IMG/VR virus record: IMGVR_UViG_3300025423_000049
Location: 1 to 35,987 of that record
Origin: a virus
DNA length: 35,987 bases
Reading direction: 5' to 3' (one strand)
Below, one piece after another: positions 3,298 through 33,061 of the stretch. The notes beneath the pieces were generated by a model. The model was not told the origin of the DNA, ran no database searches, and was given only the letters and a program-made list of their open reading frames with translations. Both the position numbers and the translations under genes were made by a program. Numbering within the stretch: the first letter of the stretch is position 1; each line of letters begins with the position of its first letter.

Positions 3298-3437
3298 AGG
3301 TCTTCGTCCTTTTCTGGGTCGCACATATCTGCTATTTCTTTAAGTATACCGCGGATTTTTTCTAGGTTCTGGTCCATAGCCCAGAAGTCAACAATGTAGT
3401 CAATGTCGTCAATCCTGGGACTGTAGTTGTCGTCCAT
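3294..3437 (-). CDS. Small acidic hypothetical protein (47 aa)
   Basis: The frame starts MDDNYSPRIDDIDYIVDFWA and ends CDPEKDEDL. It is strongly acidic and helical, with a single cysteine. The ATG shares one base with the stop of the methyltransferase/PP-loop gene (TAATG), so it is probably made in proportion to that protein. The longer in-frame extension upstream is rejected because it runs inside that gene. A small acidic partner or inhibitor of the enzyme is possible but unproven. Confidence 0.6.
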   Translation of the reverse strand: MDDNYSPRIDDIDYIVDFWAMDQNLEKIRGILKEIADMCDPEKDEDL

Positions 3438-5407
3438 TAGATTTCCCCGCATTCTTTGGCGGCATTTCTGCCGTTTCCTTTTACAAATATAAGCATGTGT
3501 TGGTGCCCGCGTCCAACCTTTCGGGAAGAACGCATTTGTTTTTCCGAACGGATGGCTAGGGTACCAACGGGGTCCACAATAATCAAGTCGTTGTACAGTT
3601 CGCAACCTATTTCACGCATAACATTTACCGTGTCGGCTACAAGGCCGTAGTAGTGACCGTCGCCCTTTTGGATTCGTGCGTCGCTAATTACAATGCCAAT
3701 GAATCGGTCGTTCTTTAACTGCTTTACTGCTGCTTCGAAGATTTCCTTGTATTCCTTTAGGAACTGGTCGTAGGGCATGTTAGAAAGGTCTTGTGGGTCA
3801 TCGCTGTAGACTTCTAGGTCCGCATAGGGTGGGCACGTAAAAATGAAGTCGTAACCTTCAGGCTGCCCCCCCAAAATTTTTTCGGGCATTTCTACGTTAA
3901 GTGGTGCGTTGAATGGTTCTTCGGGGTAGATGTTGCCCTTGAAACTTTCGTCAACAATAGAATCAATACCTGCGCCGTTGGTAAATTCTTCCTTTAGAAG
4001 TTCTTTGGCTTTTGAAAGACAGTGTTCATAGAAGTCTTTATTAAACTGGATTACTTCCAATGCAAAAAGGTTTAGGTATTCCTTTACGCATTTTTTGCAA
4101 GAACCACACCGCCCAGGAAGGATTTCACCAAATTTGGTTTCATTGGCTTTTTTAGTTTTATCACGGAAACGCATTTGTGACATGCAACCATGCGCAAAAT
4201 TGATTAATCCTTCACTAGCAACAACATGTATTGATTCTGTGCTGTTTTTTAGGTACTGGTGAAACTGCAAACCAGGAAACCTGGATTCAAGGTGTTGATG
4301 AAAAAGTTCTACTGATTCTGGATTATCCGACCAATCAAGTGTCCAATTTGCTGAAGTAATGTCGTTAGAAAAAACCCCCAAGGTGTAATGGGAACCACCG
4401 TATTCCATCATACGGCCAATCATCATTTCGGTAATAACCTGGTTTTTGGTTGGCATTTCTACAAAGCCGTTTTTTGCACCGCTAATAGAAACTTTATCAA
4501 CAAATAATGGCATGTTCATCTGGTCTGCCGCTTCCTGTGCCCATTTAAGTTCATCAGGCCACGCACGATTGATTCCAGTTATGTGGTAAAGAATTACTTT
4601 AAAACCTTCATTCCTTGCTTTAATTGCGGCAGCCATGCCATCCTTGCCGCCAGAAAAAGCAACCCACATTGTTCCGTTATCAACTGCGGTAGAAAAAACG
4701 CGGTTTGGTTCTGTTGACATGTTAAAGGAAGAAAGTTGATATGCATACTGAAGGTATGGAACCATTGAAACTGGCACGTTATGCCAGTCATTACGCATAG
4801 GGATTGAAGATGTTGAATTATAAAGGTCTACGGCTTCAAGAATAAAAGGGTTATTGGAATTCACAGACATAATTGGCCTGTCGTCATGCGAAAGGGCAAT
4901 ATGATTTGGCCCTTCAGCAACTACAGCGCTATTGCGAATATCGCTAGTAATCCATGTTGGTGGAAATTCCGAATTAGCAAGGTCAATCTGGTCGTAGTTT
5001 GATTGAACCTGTTCGGGGCGAATGTCATAACCAGTGTATGAACGGTTTAGTTGTGAAGCAACGATTCCGCGAACGCTACCCCCAGCAAAGGGGTCAAGAA
5101 TGCTTCCACCTTCGGGGCTAAACCAGCGATAGGCAACTTCGCAAATAACTGGGTCGAATACAGAAGTGCCAACTTGTTCTTCGTTTTCCGTTATTGCGTT
5201 CAATGAAACCTGACCCGTGTACGCAAGGTTTTCATTGCGACCAACTTCAGAACGCATACCCATTTGAAGCCAACGTCGTTTACGATTCTGCCATTCACCC
5301 TGGCGTCTATCCAGTACAGAAAATGGTGGTACTACAAATTTATCGGCAAGTGATACAGCAGGCTTTTTTTCCACTTCAAAAAGCGTTGCGTTTTCAAACA
5401 TGTCCAC
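3437..5407 (-). CDS. DNA methyltransferase with an inserted PP-loop ATPase domain (656 aa)
   Basis: Residues 20-160 are the N-terminal half of a phage-type DNA methylase: FVVPPFSVLDRRQGEWQ, then the SAM-binding motif LDPFAGGS near 104-111. The catalytic motif TCPPY (524-528) and a matching C-terminal half come only after residue 515. In the usual family, as I recall it, the halves are joined by a short linker. Here about 355 residues intervene. They hold a PP-loop ATPase signature FSGGKDGM (251-258) and a cysteine set CGSCKKC (C434, C437, C440) with C408 upstream, as in QueC-like or tRNA-thiolation enzymes. PP-loop enzymes adenylate a substrate, and the methylase half should recognise DNA, so the whole may install a modified base. 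GTG at 5407 is favoured over ATG at 5401 because GAAGGA lies seven bases before it. Confidence 0.85.
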   Translation of the reverse strand: MDMFENATLFEVEKKPAVSLADKFVVPPFSVLDRRQGEWQNRKRRWLQMGMRSEVGRNENLAYTGQVSLNAITENEEQVGTSVFDPVICEVAYRWFSPEGGSILDPFAGGSVRGIVASQLNRSYTGYDIRPEQVQSNYDQIDLANSEFPPTWITSDIRNSAVVAEGPNHIALSHDDRPIMSVNSNNPFILEAVDLYNSTSSIPMRNDWHNVPVSMVPYLQYAYQLSSFNMSTEPNRVFSTAVDNGTMWVAFSGGKDGMAAAIKARNEGFKVILYHITGINRAWPDELKWAQEAADQMNMPLFVDKVSISGAKNGFVEMPTKNQVITEMMIGRMMEYGGSHYTLGVFSNDITSANWTLDWSDNPESVELFHQHLESRFPGLQFHQYLKNSTESIHVVASEGLINFAHGCMSQMRFRDKTKKANETKFGEILPGRCGSCKKCVKEYLNLFALEVIQFNKDFYEHCLSKAKELLKEEFTNGAGIDSIVDESFKGNIYPEEPFNAPLNVEMPEKILGGQPEGYDFIFTCPPYADLEVYSDDPQDLSNMPYDQFLKEYKEIFEAAVKQLKNDRFIGIVISDARIQKGDGHYYGLVADTVNVMREIGCELYNDLIIVDPVGTLAIRSEKQMRSSRKVGRGHQHMLIFVKGNGRNAAKECGEI

Positions 5408-5975: not shown

Positions 5976-6073
5976 TACTTCCACGCCCCACAAATACCGG
6001 CAAGTACAAATAAGAAAAATGCTATGGCGCCAACTAAAGAAATGTGTGCAACCCAGTTGATTATTATATTCAT
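5975..6073 (-). CDS. 32-aa single-pass membrane micro-protein
   Basis: The frame opens MNIIINWVAHISLVGAIAFF, continues as LFVLAGICGAWK and consists of one long hydrophobic helix. Both ends are coupled by one-base TAATG overlaps: the start to the stop of the DNA methyltransferase, and the stop to the start of the 72-aa gene. This arrangement leaves no spare base and argues strongly that it is translated. The function is unknown. Confidence 0.65.
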   Translation of the reverse strand: MNIIINWVAHISLVGAIAFFLFVLAGICGAWK

Positions 6074-6852
6074 TATTTTAATGTACCATACTTTTGGGGG
6101 TCGGAATAATAAAGTTCTATTCTTCGCTTTGCTACTTCTGTTTGCTGCGTAGAAATGTCAACGCAAATATAAGACCGTTTGTTTTCAATTGCTGCCTGGG
6201 CAGTTAAACCAGTACCGCCAAACGGGTCAAGAACAAAATCACCTGGACGGCTGAAAAGATTTATAAACTTGTGCGCCCAACCAATGGGATAGGTGTCACC
6301 AATTGAACCAAATGCTACATCGCCTTTGGCAAGTTCTTTGTCCAATTCTTGACCTTCATTTGATACAAATTCAGTACCCCAGTTCTGCTTAAGAACCCTT
6401 TCGTCAAAATAGTGGTTAAAGTTTTTCTTTGAAAGGTGAATCCAAAAGTTGTGATAAGGGTTTATGTTTTCATAGACGGGTGTATCAGGATTTCTGAATT
6501 CAATAAACATTTCAGAACTACTGTAATCCCAGTAGAAAAATCCACGACAAGCAAGGTTAGTTTTTTTTAAGACTTCAGAAACGTAGTGGTAGGGCGTTCC
6601 AGCACCAGCAACATCGCCAATGCAAATAAGAATGTTTCCATCGTCAGCAAGAACGCGTTCCATTTCCTTTGTCGCTTTGACAAGTGACTTAACAACTTTT
6701 TTGTGGTCGGGAACAATAATTTGTTTGTCGTGTTCACCACCATAACGGTCACCGGAAAAGCCAAAATACGGCGGGTGCGTAACTATTAGATTGATGCTTC
6801 TACTGTCTAAATCCAGTTTTAAAGCATCACCAAGAAATATACCGCTTCGCAT
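6073..6852 (-). CDS. DNA methyltransferase, N4-cytosine/N6-adenine type (259 aa)
   Basis: Catalytic motif IV THPPYFG is near the N-terminus (residues 25-31). The SAM-binding motif VLDPFGGTG is near the C-terminus (about 208-216), followed by YICVDIS. This circular order is that of class beta amino-methyltransferases (N4-mC or N6-mA). The central 120 residues, with aromatic and acidic stretches, should contain the target-recognition region, and its specificity cannot be read from sequence. The length is normal for a solitary phage methylase. No restriction endonuclease gene is adjacent. The start overlaps the upstream stop as TAATG. It may protect the genome or supply the amino-modified base for the other enzymes of this operon. 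Confidence 0.9.
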   Translation of the reverse strand: MRSGIFLGDALKLDLDSRSINLIVTHPPYFGFSGDRYGGEHDKQIIVPDHKKVVKSLVKATKEMERVLADDGNILICIGDVAGAGTPYHYVSEVLKKTNLACRGFFYWDYSSSEMFIEFRNPDTPVYENINPYHNFWIHLSKKNFNHYFDERVLKQNWGTEFVSNEGQELDKELAKGDVAFGSIGDTYPIGWAHKFINLFSRPGDFVLDPFGGTGLTAQAAIENKRSYICVDISTQQTEVAKRRIELYYSDPQKYGTLK

Positions 6853-7043: not shown

Positions 7044-7227
7044 TGTTGTTCCAATCCCCAGCGGCATTGTAAAGTGCCTGGTTAATATATTGTGTTGGTC
7101 GCATGCCTTCTGCTTTTGCAAAAGAACGTACACGTGACCATTCTTCTGTTGAAAAATCAAGTGAAACCTTGCTGTAGTACTTTTTTTTCATCTTGCGCGG
7201 AACCCTGCGCGGTGCGTTCTTAATCAT
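7030..7227 (-). CDS. Ribbon-helix-helix DNA-binding protein (65 aa)
   Basis: After a basic N-terminal arm (residues 1-17, RRVPRKMKKK) comes a typical Arc/CopG fold: beta strand SKVSLDFS (19-26), helix A EEWSRVRSFAKAEG and helix B RPTQYINQALYNAA. Such proteins bind operators as dimers through the strand and often repress their own operon. The ATG at 7227 overlaps the GroES-like gene by eight bases. An alternative start at M13 would drop the basic arm. Candidate operators are the inverted repeat at the operon promoter (9796-9823) and the 16-base palindrome at 3115-3130. Both are inference. Confidence 0.75.
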   Translation of the reverse strand: MIKNAPRRVPRKMKKKYYSKVSLDFSTEEWSRVRSFAKAEGMRPTQYINQALYNAAGDWNNNESI

Positions 7228-7513
7228 TGTCGATAACCGCAAGGATGCCATCACTGGTGACGGTAACGTAAGGTTCGTTGTCAATTTCGATTCCGTAGGC
7301 TTTTTCTTTGCTGAAAACAACCATGTCGCCAACTTTAATGTCCATAGGAATTAGGACGCCAAACCTATTGGTTTTACCAGGACCCACAGCCATTACTTCA
7401 CCCTGATTCGGTACAGGCTGCGAAGATGCTGGGATAATAAAACCGGAATCGGTTGTTTTGTCGCTGTGGTCCAGTTTAAGGATTACACGGTCTTCAGTCG
7501 GCGTTGCGTTCAT
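7220..7513 (-). CDS. groES: GroES-like co-chaperonin (97 aa)
   Basis: The length and motif order are those of Cpn10/GroES: TEDRVILKLD at the start, a mobile-loop region about 15-35 (SDKTTDSGFIIPAS), GEVMAVGPG (38-46), VGDMVVFSKE and the closing DGILAVID. GroES caps the GroEL chamber. T4 gp31 is the known case of a phage substitute that helps fold the capsid protein. No groEL is visible, so the host GroEL would be used. The ATG overlaps the preceding gene by 20 bases. Its place in the modification operon, far from the capsid gene, is unusual and may mean that an enzyme here needs help folding. Confidence 0.88.
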   Translation of the reverse strand: MNATPTEDRVILKLDHSDKTTDSGFIIPASSQPVPNQGEVMAVGPGKTNRFGVLIPMDIKVGDMVVFSKEKAYGIEIDNEPYVTVTSDGILAVIDND

Positions 7514-7740: not shown

Positions 7741-8304
7741 CTACCCCAACCACATTGGAAGGGTGCAACGGTAATTTCCTAAAACCTTTTTAACACGATG
7801 AAGGTGTTTGTACTGGTCCCAGTTGTGTGACCAATGATTGTCAGGGTTTACAGGGTCATCGGTAAACCAAATGAAACTGCCCTTTACTGGTTTGTACGAA
7901 ATGTTTAAGTTCGGGAATTCAATTTCCCCGCCTTCAAAGTTATCGTTAAGGTAAAAGATTCCCGAATATTTTGCGCCATGTCCCTTAATTTTTGGGTCAG
8001 CGTTATCCACGTGCGCAGTTCCTGATAATCCTGGGCGCCAAATACTTAGGTCACCATCCATGCGCGGGTATGGGCCGTCGTTGTATTTTTCCTTTACCTG
8101 GGAACAGAAGATTTCGTAGCACTTTTCAATAAAACGCTTATCTTCTTCTTCGGGTTCTTCAATAATAAGGATTTGTGGTTCGTCAAAGAATGCCTTAAGT
8201 TTAAATTCTTCGCGAAGCCTTATAAGTTTTGCCGAAAAGTAATCACAATCTTTTTCAGGGATTGCATCCTTTAAAAGGTGTACACCTTCAGCAAGTTCGG
8301 TCAT
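7741..8304 (-). CDS. 2-oxoglutarate/Fe(II)-dependent oxygenase (187 aa)
   Basis: The iron-binding HxD is AHVDNAD (H98, D100). The distal histidine is H169 in HLHRVKKVLG, followed ten residues later by R179, which should bind 2-oxoglutarate. GGEIEFPNLNISYKPVKGS fits the strands typical of prolyl-4-hydroxylase-like enzymes. These hydroxylate proteins, nucleotides or DNA bases. The ATG at 8304 overlaps the stop of the DUF1599-like gene as ATGA, and the 14-residue longer frame is rejected. Phage relatives are often annotated as oxygenases of unknown substrate. Lying beside two DNA methyltransferases and a DUF1599 protein, it may hydroxylate a base or a base precursor, but a protein substrate is equally possible. 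Confidence 0.85.
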   Translation of the reverse strand: MTELAEGVHLLKDAIPEKDCDYFSAKLIRLREEFKLKAFFDEPQILIIEEPEEEDKRFIEKCYEIFCSQVKEKYNDGPYPRMDGDLSIWRPGLSGTAHVDNADPKIKGHGAKYSGIFYLNDNFEGGEIEFPNLNISYKPVKGSFIWFTDDPVNPDNHWSHNWDQYKHLHRVKKVLGNYRCTLPMWLG

Positions 8305-8633
8305 TGCTTGTACCAGTTTGGCCCATATGTATCGCGACGGTAGCAAATAATAGCGCCAATGTTGTACACAGGCATGTCAATAAGACTGTCTTCAACAGAT
8401 TCATTCGTCATTGGCGTTCCGTAACGAATGTGGTTTTTAATTCGGTGAAGTTTGTCATTCATGCGAATCAAGGCGCCTACCCATCCAGGCGTTCCGAATT
8501 CCGCACTAGCAAGAACATTTGCCCAACTATCTTCTGGGCTTCCATAATCCTTGGATTTGCGGTCGTGCATTTCCTTTAGTTCTATAAGAACTGCTTCAAA
8601 TTCAACGTTGGGGTCTAAGGTAACTTTTTTCAT
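8301..8633 (-). CDS. DUF1599/MazG-like all-helical protein (110 aa)
   Basis: The sequence contains EMHDRKSKDYGSPEDSWANV and ALIRMNDKLHRI, then VEDSLIDMPVYNIGA, an all-helical acidic pattern. It matches what I remember of DUF1599 (also named nucleotide modification associated domain 1) and of MazG-type nucleotide pyrophosphatases. Such proteins may hydrolyse or bind (d)NTPs, so it could clean the nucleotide pool for a modified base. ATG at 8633 is chosen over the longer frame because AGAAAG precedes it and the extension would overlap the upstream gene. It is coupled to the oxygenase by an ATGA overlap. Confidence 0.7.
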   Translation of the reverse strand: MKKVTLDPNVEFEAVLIELKEMHDRKSKDYGSPEDSWANVLASAEFGTPGWVGALIRMNDKLHRIKNHIRYGTPMTNESVEDSLIDMPVYNIGAIICYRRDTYGPNWYKQ

Positions 8634-8644
8634 AATTTCTTTCT

Positions 8645-9316
8645 TTATTTGTAAGATTTGCGTTGCCACTTTGTTTTACGGTACCAGTCATGGGCGCTTT
8701 TGGTTTCAAGTTCGCGTCCTTCATGTGCTAACCCCTTGACTTTCTTGCTTTCCCAATCTTCACGCAAAAAAGGTATAATTTGTAGAACTGGTGTTCCTTC
8801 TGGAATAAGACCTTCAAAACCTTCTTTTAGGAAGAAGGGAATATTTCCGCCCATCAGTGGGAAGTCATTTTCCATAACGCCAGAAAGCGTAATAAATGGC
8901 AATTCAAAGCGATTCATTGGGTGTATGTACAATGCGCTGTACCCTTCAGGAAGACGTACGCAGGCGCGCGTAGTCCATGTCCAATAGTAGGGTTCGTAAC
9001 CATGCGGAACCGGCATGGGGTCTGTTTGAATTTGATGCCTTGCGCTTACCCCATCCCCTTCAATGGCATAACGAAATATTGGAAAACCCTGTGAACGGTC
9101 GACGTAAATGTCAGTGTTAAGCGTAACATAATAACCGGTTGTCATTGATTCCAAAAATGGAAGACAGTGTTTTGCCGACATTGTGTTTGTATCACCAGGA
9201 ATTACAACATCCCTTGGAATTTGCTTATACCATTCAGGTATTGCAGTTCGTGCTGAAACTACTTCATTGTCAAATCCGTGAAGACTTTCCCACTCAAGAA
9301 GTTTTCTTTTAGACAT
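8645..9316 (-). CDS. Conserved phage protein of unknown function (223 aa)
   Basis: The protein has no membrane segment and begins MSKRKLLEWESLHG. Recognisable blocks are PEWYKQIPRD, a central CLPFLESMTTGYYVTLN, and near the end GTPVLQIIPFLREDW. From memory the same blocks occur in a protein family common in cyanophages and other aquatic phages (I believe DUF6065), whose role is not known. AAAGGA stands before the ATG. It is the first protein gene after the two tRNAs and directly precedes the DUF1599 and oxygenase genes, so it may serve the same pathway. Confidence 0.7.
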   Translation of the reverse strand: MSKRKLLEWESLHGFDNEVVSARTAIPEWYKQIPRDVVIPGDTNTMSAKHCLPFLESMTTGYYVTLNTDIYVDRSQGFPIFRYAIEGDGVSARHQIQTDPMPVPHGYEPYYWTWTTRACVRLPEGYSALYIHPMNRFELPFITLSGVMENDFPLMGGNIPFFLKEGFEGLIPEGTPVLQIIPFLREDWESKKVKGLAHEGRELETKSAHDWYRKTKWQRKSYK

Positions 9317-9333: not shown

Positions 9334-9407
9334 TGGCTGGCAGACTAGGACTCGAACCTAGAACGAGGGATTCAAAGTCCCTAGTGTTGCCATTACACCA
9401 TCTGCCA
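9334..9407 (-). tRNA. trnQ: tRNA-Gln (anticodon UUG)
   Basis: A full cloverleaf is seen. The acceptor is TGGCAGA/TCTGCCA, the D-stem GTGT/ACAC, the anticodon stem AGGGA/TCCCT with loop CTTTGAA, and the T-stem CTAGG/CCTAG with TTCGAGT. The discriminator is G and CCA is encoded. UUG reads CAA, a common codon in the phage genes. It lies in the leader part of the long leftward operon. Confidence 0.95.
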
Positions 9408-9412
9408 AATTG

Positions 9413-9484
9413 CTGGTCAGGTAGGACTCGAACCTACAACCACCTCATTAACAGTGAGGTGCACTGCCATTGTGCTACTGACCA
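9413..9484 (-). tRNA. trnN: tRNA-Asn (anticodon GUU)
   Basis: All four stems pair: TGGTCAG/CTGACCA, GCAC/GTGC, CCTCA/TGAGG with loop CTGTTAA, and GTAGG/CCTAC. The 3' end is G followed by CAA, so CCA is not encoded and must be added. It lies five bases upstream of tRNA-Gln on the same strand, probably on one precursor transcript. GUU reads AAC, heavily used in the virion genes. Confidence 0.95.
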
Positions 9485-31819: not shown

Positions 31820-33061
31820 ATGATAAGCATCTTTACGCCCACCCACAACCCAAAATATCTGGACCAGGCTTACGAAAGTCTTAAAAACCAGACTTATACA
31901 GCATGGGAATGGGTGGTGTTACTTAATGGTGACGCTAAGTGGAACCGTCCAGAATATGACGACCGCGTTGTTATCATTAAGGCAAGCAAAAAAAGTGAAG
32001 GATTTGTTGGCGCTTTAAAGCGCGAAGCAGTCAGTCATTGCGTTGGCGAAATCCTTGTGGAATTAGACCACGACGACATTCTTATGCCAAACGCACTGGA
32101 AGTGCTTGCACAAGCCTTTGCTGAAAACCCAGATGCTTCCTTTGTTTATTCTGATTTTTCCTACATTAACGAAGATGGCACACCAAGCAATCACCGTTAT
32201 TCTTCCGAATATGGCTGGGAATACCATGTAGAAGATGGCTACAACGTTTGCCATGGCATGGAACCAAGCCCACACAACGTTTCTTTGATTTGGTATGCAC
32301 CAAACCACGTTCGTGCTTTCCGTAAGTCTTCTTACAAAGATGCCGGTGGTTACGACGAAAAATTAAAAGTTTTGGACGACCAAGACCTTATGGCGCGTTT
32401 GTTCATTCAGGGTGAATTTGTTCACGTAAAAAAGAACCTTTACCTGCAAAGAATGCACGAAGAAAACACGCAATCAAAGTCTGACATTAACCCATTCATT
32501 CAAACCGAAACCGTAAGAATGAATAACGTTAATCTTCAGCCTATGCTTCTTGCCTGGTCAAAGCGCAATAATCTTATGGCAATCGACATGGGTGCTGCAC
32601 ATAATCCAACACCAGGATACGCAACGCTTGACATGCACGAACCAGCAGACCTTGTTGGTGATGTTTTTGACATTCTTGCAAGCCTTGACGACAACAGTGT
32701 TGGTGTTATCCGCGCAGTTGACTTCCTGGAACACATCCCAGACAAAGTGCGTATTTGGAACGAAATGTATCGCGTCCTTGCCCACGGCGGAATGGTCCTA
32801 AGCCTTACACCTAGCACAGATGGACGTGGTGCTTTCCAAGACCCAACGCACAATTCTTTTTACAACGAAAATAGTTTCTGGTATTTTGCAGATGAAAACT
32901 ACCGCAAGTACGTTCCAGAACTAAAGATGGACTTTCAAGCCGTTACGCTTCAAACATACTTCCCAAGCGAATGGCACAAAAAACACAATATTTCCTACGT
33001 AAACGCAAACCTTATTGCACTTAAGGGTGGTGAGCGTCAAGGAGGAAGACTAGGAATCTAA
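31820..33061 (+). CDS. Glycosyltransferase family 2 fused to a SAM methyltransferase (413 aa)
   Basis: Residues 1-230 are a GT-A glycosyltransferase: SIFTPTHNPKYLDQAYESLK, then the DxD motif D83-H-D85 in ELDHDD, and a late GGYDEKLKVLDDQDLMARL. Residues about 250-400 are a methyltransferase of the type 11 class: DMGAAHNPTPGYATLDM, then VDFLEHIPDKVRIWNEMYRV and LSLTPSTDGRG. The two would add and methylate a sugar. Its place among baseplate genes suggests that a virion protein or fibre is glycosylated, but the target is unknown. An AAGG ribosome site precedes the ATG. Confidence 0.88.
   Translation: MISIFTPTHNPKYLDQAYESLKNQTYTAWEWVVLLNGDAKWNRPEYDDRVVIIKASKKSEGFVGALKREAVSHCVGEILVELDHDDILMPNALEVLAQAFAENPDASFVYSDFSYINEDGTPSNHRYSSEYGWEYHVEDGYNVCHGMEPSPHNVSLIWYAPNHVRAFRKSSYKDAGGYDEKLKVLDDQDLMARLFIQGEFVHVKKNLYLQRMHEENTQSKSDINPFIQTETVRMNNVNLQPMLLAWSKRNNLMAIDMGAAHNPTPGYATLDMHEPADLVGDVFDILASLDDNSVGVIRAVDFLEHIPDKVRIWNEMYRVLAHGGMVLSLTPSTDGRGAFQDPTHNSFYNENSFWYFADENYRKYVPELKMDFQAVTLQTYFPSEWHKKHNISYVNANLIALKGGERQGGRLGI

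Follow-up and report, generated by a model that had tools for sequence, protein, structure and literature searches.

The locus described here raises two questions: does a phage DNA methyltransferase (MTase) genuinely carry a PP-loop ATPase within its own chain and, if so, what might the two enzymes do together? The window, that is, the whole 35,987-base stretch of DNA that was analysed, is an IMG/VR virus record in its entirety, with tailed-phage structural genes downstream. A sequence-only reading had proposed that the ATPase is nested in the MTase, and the located motifs and single intact 656-aa frame bear this out: the ORF encodes one unbroken chain in which an insert of ~350 residues splits the MTase (Table 1). 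Both halves of the MTase are readily recognized. Pfam N6_N4_Mtase (E 9e-14), PHROG 12517 (4.7e-89), and PHROG 498 (3.3e-68) each match the protein in two stretches, the two halves together matching the full-length MTase profile with motif I (DPFAGGS) ahead of CPPY, and the columns conserved with uninterrupted relatives run from S82 to N137 and resume from D520 to G644. The modelled MTase part matches DNA MTases in the PDB, and pLDDT in the full-length AF2 model is about 94–96 over residues 91–160 and mostly 73–98 past residue 520. The catalytic motif has Cys before PPY, where Asp, Asn, or Ser is usual, making CPPY an atypical N6/N4 motif. The N-terminal ParB domain of many homologues is absent from the window MTase, and no ParB_N match occurs in the window record; the domain is common rather than universal in the family (several homologues also lack a fused copy) and was not taken as defining. 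The distance from DPFAGG to CPPY in the window is 419 residues, close to the ~415 first estimated. The uninterrupted spacing had been put at roughly 50, which proved too low: 76 of the 81 homologous frames outside the window span 67–77 residues, one spans 127, and the remaining four span 320–345, all with a PLP enzyme inserted.

An assembly artefact or a decayed gene can be ruled out. The identical ORF, with zero or one synonymous difference, is intact in three further IMG/VR contigs (L001–L003), and because of this recurrence a one-off assembly error is rejected; both readings are also contradicted by split and tandem homologues that pair the same MTase and PP-loop enzymes. With motifs retained in both MTase halves, the earlier interpretation as a functional nesting stands. 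Together, sequence comparison and structure modelling show a phage DNA MTase with an intact predicted QueC-superfamily PP-loop ATPase inside it. The MTase belongs to a known phage family, and the sequence of the insert marks it as a divergent offshoot of a known superfamily. As to the surroundings, the gene run of the ORF also includes a GroES-type co-chaperonin (7220-7513, minus strand; Cpn10, E 2e-25). Further features of the window are a weak match, below the curated cut-off, to DUF1599, 'nucleotide modification associated domain 1' (8301-8669, minus strand), two tRNA genes, Gln (TTG) and Asn (GTT) (9334-9484, minus strand), and, in the tail region, a family 2 glycosyltransferase fused to a SAM methyltransferase domain (31820-33061, plus strand).

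Table 1. Coordinates of the nested ORF, its parts and motifs, two window neighbours, and related MTases with an inserted PLP enzyme. Positions refer to the window unless a locus is given.
Feature	Coordinates	Strand	Basis or remark
Whole ORF, 656 aa	3437..5407	-	GTG start; one reading frame: MTase N-half, QueC-superfamily PP-loop insert, MTase C-half
MTase N-terminal half, residues 1-161	4925..5407	-	MT profile positions 14-105; AF2 pLDDT
SAM-binding motif LDPFAGGS, residues 104-111	5075..5098	-	Invariant alignment columns
Predicted QueC-superfamily PP-loop insert, residues 165-512	3872..4915	-	Family profile, AF2, structural matches
PP-loop FSGGKDG, residues 251-257	4637..4657	-	Family alignment
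MPTKNQ, residues 318-323	4439..4456	-	Family-invariant P-x-K-N, at the place of QueC VPxRN
C408	4184-4186	-	First Cys of probable zinc site C-x25-CxxCxxC
RCGSCKKC, residues 433-440 (C434, C437, C440)	4088..4111	-	Invariant Cys
MTase C-terminal half, residues 517-656	3440..3859	-	MT profile positions 108-244; AF2 pLDDT
Catalytic motif DFIFTCPPY, residues 520-528 (TCPPY 524-528)	3824..3850	-	Sequence motif
N6_N4 MTase, motif THPPY	6073..6852	-	Pfam/PHROG; same strand as ORF, membership in system not implied
2OG-Fe(II) oxygenase	7741..8346	-	Same strand as ORF, membership in system not implied
PLP enzyme inside MTase, between SAM and catalytic motifs	L004:4446-6971, L005:2131-4761, L021:4404-6719, L044:4473-6911

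The identity of the insert emerges most clearly from its family. Single-sequence HMMs match it weakly (ATP_bind_3, E 0.032; QueC, E 0.24), whereas a family assembled from standalone homologues points to the QueC superfamily. Pfam QueC is the family hit by most members (12 of 24 at E 0.01 or better), the homologue in L016 passes the Pfam cut-off, and PHROG 'QueC-like' is the commonest match. Members share SGGxD, G-x-N, an invariant Glu, P-x-K-N, and four Cys ending in CGxCxKC; C408, C434, C437, and C440 are invariant in the 24 aligned sequences, no other cysteine is, and their C...CxxCxxC pattern is that of the superfamily, with zinc predicted from sequence. In the full-length AF2 model, made from IMG/VR rows only, without those of the annotated phage collection, the insert has pLDDT mostly <65, and the placement of one active site relative to the other cannot be read from it. 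Given this low confidence, the insert was modelled on its own from 24 sequences, and folded as a PP-loop domain with pLDDT 83.3 and pTM 0.85. VIA-align ranked QatC first (Z 16.4 over 271 residues, model 7–337, including the N-terminal extension of the insert), followed by Cap9 (15.3) and QueC (14.5 and 14.0), with all other PP-loop folds at 12.1 or less. The top Foldseek matches were B. subtilis QueC, TtuA, and Cap9, and phage 7-cyano-7-deazaguanine synthases ranked first in a viral library. The PP-loop assignment drawn from profile and model is thus firm, and the resemblance to QueC-like enzymes first noticed from FSGGKDG and CxxCxxC is upheld by profile, predicted structure, and the four invariant cysteines.

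Two alternative functions can be weighed on this evidence. First, the insert may transfer sulfur, in the manner of DndC, TtuA, or MnmA, with the MTase half selecting the sites at which a base or the backbone is thiolated; the best match of the family profile in the PDB is indeed TtuA (E 3e-10, against 1e-4 for Cap9 and 1e-3 for QueC), and MnmA was matched in part of the domain. However, the TtuA and MnmA matches are limited to the N-terminal PP-loop stretch, whereas the domain as a whole favours QatC, Cap9, and QueC, and the invariant cysteines coincide with the four of a QueC-type zinc site rather than with the set of a sulfur relay or an Fe-S site. Nor was a partner cysteine desulfurase (PF00266) found in 23 records (the window record and 22 others carrying the PP-loop family), although a host enzyme could serve, and we regard sulfur transfer as highly improbable. 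Second, the superfamily membership by profile and fold, for which a direct comparison with a QueC sequence is supporting only, together with the prevalent PHROG label, would fit synthesis of preQ0 or another 7-deazapurine for DNA, as by canonical QueC. We consider the chance of this to be slight: YxQxHxxE and YPDC are absent from the insert family and VPxRN is reduced to P-x-K-N, with a conserved Glu left, and neither QueD (PF01242) nor a TGT/DpdA family protein (PF01702) was found in the same 23 records, which may be fragments. Because the canonical substrate motifs are absent, the insert is a divergent QueC-superfamily enzyme for which preQ0 synthesis is unlikely. The initial suggestion of an MTase coupled to a base-activating reaction of the sulfur or deazapurine type therefore loses its second part, given the lack of partner genes and motifs; its first part, the coupling, is retained in view of adjacent and split genes in other phages.

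These genes make the coupling of MTase and PP-loop activities, as judged from comparative genomics, well supported. Searching IMG/VR with nothing but PP-loop patterns, and hence independently of the MTase, brought up 22 loci and later 35; pooled with the window, a single phage, and a single genome fragment, these fall into 26 sequence clusters. Under a strong partner criterion (a PHROG-498-type MTase with profile E <1e-30; fused, split around the PP-loop enzyme, or no more than 1.5 kb away on the same strand), an MTase partner is present in 19 of the 26 clusters, or 18 of 25 without the window. The other seven lack a strong-scoring match to the window MTase family: in three of them a weakly related MTase lies no more than about 2 kb away, and the remaining four show none. 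PP-loop homologues in L100 (5272-7520) and L101 (3483-5651), with no MTase detected, adjoin a radical-SAM enzyme with distant similarity to PA0069/Rv2578c and spore photoproduct lyase. The MTase is therefore not a universal partner. A genome scan with the PP-loop profile returned one fragment, from a Cytophagales MAG; as the pattern was narrow, this does not imply rarity in cells. In L093 and L104, the gene order is MTase half-gene, PP-loop gene, MTase half-gene, with the MTase cut at profile position 87–89. Since the PP-loop gene is elsewhere adjacent to this MTase or flanked by its two half-genes, and a PLP enzyme can take the same place, the encoded enzyme most likely works in the same pathway as the MTase. 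Two further features were seen at such loci: the MTase N-half gene of L104 (4449-5978) has a cysteine-rich C-terminal tail with a weak DUF3109 match, and a SET-domain gene follows the MTase/PP-loop pair in L016 (2371-2973) and its relatives, with a homologue following in L093.

The site of insertion raises the possibility of a passenger role, passive or regulatory, in which the PP-loop domain senses ATP or stabilises the MTase and the DNA is only methylated. In Rossmann MTases, the loop after the strand-3 helix lies on the edge away from the active site. In the model, strand 3 (E151-154) and then a short helix (H157-160) precede the insert, and the CPPY strand (E519-524) comes after it; the insert thus seems to occupy an edge loop where passengers would be tolerated. 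Yet two dozen divergent sequences all retain the insert's catalytic residues, and free-standing PP-loop versions persist beside the same MTase, which makes a mere passenger quite unlikely. For a cooperating pair, the same apparent position on the sheet edge makes tethering more likely than direct channelling.

The PP-loop enzyme is one of several partners of this MTase. In many relatives found by MTase similarity, the gene right after the MTase encodes a PLP fold-type II enzyme that keeps its lysine and phosphate-binding GSG, and several of these gene pairs have touching or overlapping frames. In Pam4, ZS04, L021, and L044, the PLP enzyme is inserted in the MTase itself at profile position 84–90, where L093 and L104 break the MTase into two genes; the window insert occurs at position 105/108, indicating two distinct insertion sites in the MTase family. 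The MTase, PP-loop, and PLP frames overlap in L114, and the PP-loop and PLP genes lie side by side, downstream of a related MTase, in Staphylococcus phage Alsa_1. The Alsa_1 PP-loop gene (L007:4942-5702) has a frameshift in the deposited record, and its remaining frame is well conserved. A third enzyme, the 2OG-type Asp_Arg_Hydrox protein of L074 (6113-7270) and L086 (4506-7262), is found between the MTase and PLP genes or fused to the MTase C-terminus, the fusion coming with one further domain; the 2OG-Fe(II) oxygenase of the window is a different protein. Searches with Pfam PALP and the family profile found no PLP enzyme in the window record, which may be a fragment. In the MTase tree the partner label switches several times, with L006 (PLP) and L102 (PP-loop) as sisters (support 100/95); the window row has a long branch and no settled placement in either tree. 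The partner switches and shared location indicate that the PP-loop enzyme is exchangeable with other enzymes. Overall, the nested, split, and side-by-side arrangements and the interchangeable PLP partners show, at the level of sequence, what appears to be one reaction slot beside or inside the MTase that is filled by different enzymes.

These partners also bear on a further alternative, in which the insert modifies protein: a small molecule with a carboxylate would be attached to an amine, either on the MTase or on another phage or host protein, as an on/off switch. The two nearest structures, slightly above metabolic QueC, are those of Cap9, which acts on a partner protein, and QatC, for which such action is proposed (PMC13279940, PMC13329287), and fusion with a partner protein would fit. 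However, the enzyme is usually found with a DNA MTase whose SAM and catalytic motifs are intact, and the alternative partners of that MTase, PLP and 2OG-type, better suit small-molecule or base chemistry, such that protein modification appears unlikely.

The reading we prefer, and to which we give about an even chance, takes the protein for a bifunctional enzyme that hypermodifies phage DNA: its MTase would alkylate a base, and its insert would use ATP to activate a carboxylate for amide formation. We infer the chemistry of this two-step module as follows. The MTase half would flip a base in phage DNA and attach a group donated by SAM or by one of its derivatives; this group would bear, or later gain, a carboxylate. 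Aminocarboxypropyl is an economical guess for it, being already part of SAM and in keeping with the PLP enzyme and the Asp/Asn-hydroxylase-like protein seen next to such MTases. A route via Cx-SAM was set aside as unlikely, since no CmoA (Cx-SAM synthase) was found in 29 records. The QueC-like domain would adenylate the carboxylate, on the added group or its donor, with ATP and then couple an amine to give the amide, and the product would protect phage DNA against host nucleases. Nesting would hold the two active sites in a one-to-one ratio, with no requirement for substrate channelling. Support for this two-step reading comes from: (i) the intact motifs of both enzymes; (ii) the confident model of the insert, best matched by QatC, Cap9, and QueC; (iii) the MTase partnership in most PP-loop clusters from a query holding PP-loop patterns only; (iv) the gene splits of L093 and L104, the overlaps of L114, and the partner swap between L006 and L102; and, by analogy, (v) the chemical precedents of CmoX/CmoY, QueC, and Cap9. 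Against it are the atypical CPPY motif, the lack of CmoA in the 29 records and of a PLP enzyme in the window record, the clusters without the MTase family (L100 and L101, with their radical-SAM neighbour, among them), and the poor prediction of the insert in the full-length model. Insofar as the same two enzymes are neighbours in related phages, they probably cooperate in an elaborate modification of phage DNA. A more specific version is offered tentatively and is rather doubtful in its detail: the MTase half would add 3-amino-3-carboxypropyl from SAM to a DNA base, the nested QueC-like domain would amidate it, and related phages would swap the ligase for PLP or 2OG-type enzymes to give modular amino-acid-like modifications.

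A nested chain with exchangeable partners was not described in the literature searched, which did not cover Iyer et al. 2013. That work reportedly predicted that SAM derivatives and PP-loop enzymes are employed in modifying DNA, and parts of the MTase/PP-loop system may perhaps already have been proposed there. The insert family would represent an unexplored branch of the QueC superfamily tied to phage DNA MTases, one that is absent from the main text of a 2026 survey of the family.

Comparison with known systems places each part of the module. The MTase halves correspond in motifs and order to the phage ParB-MTase family (PHROG 498/12517), in which a ParB fold is fused to N6_N4_Mtase (PMC12704722); the window protein differs in lacking ParB and in holding a PP-loop enzyme. 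Pam4 gp70 (Pseudanabaena phage), ZS04 gp7 (Erythrobacter phage), L021, and L044 likewise place a whole enzyme between the MTase motifs, but theirs is of PLP fold-type II and sits ~17 profile positions before the window insert. With canonical QueC, characterized by YxQxHxxE, VPxRN, YPDC, and a zinc-site spacing of C-x8-C (PMC13329287), the insert shares the PP-loop fold, SGGxD(S), and the C...CxxCxxC pattern, and differs in the first and last motifs, in P-x-K-N, in a spacing of C-x25-C, and in the absence of Que pathway genes nearby. QueC-superfamily enzymes use ATP to activate a carboxylate, to which an amine is joined (ammonia for QueC, a protein N-terminus for Cap9), and the zinc site of QatC (C334/C354/C357/C360) has the spacing C-x19-C (PMC13279940). 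QatC (qatABCD) and Cap9 (type IV CBASS) resemble the insert in superfamily fold, SGGxD(S), and four-cysteine zinc-type site, and QatC also in the N-terminal extension; they differ in their partners, which are QatB or a CD-NTase in bacterial defence rather than a phage DNA MTase. Closest in proposed logic is CmoX/CmoY. CmoX, a phage C5-cytosine MTase (SPPC) using Cx-SAM from CmoA, puts a carboxymethyl group on cytosine to yield 5-carboxymethylcytosine, and CmoY, an ATP-dependent ligase homologous to asparagine synthetase, makes an amide with glycine (PMC12783734). The window differs from that system in its N6/N4-type MTase with CPPY, in the missing CmoA, and in a candidate ligase that derives from the QueC/QatC branch and is nested in the MTase. 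Both combine a phage DNA MTase-like enzyme with a known or putative ATP-dependent, AMP-forming ligase, and both often have a ParB-domain protein among their neighbours; if the proposed chemistry is true, carboxylate activation on the product of an N6/N4-type MTase would join the routes by which phages mask their DNA.
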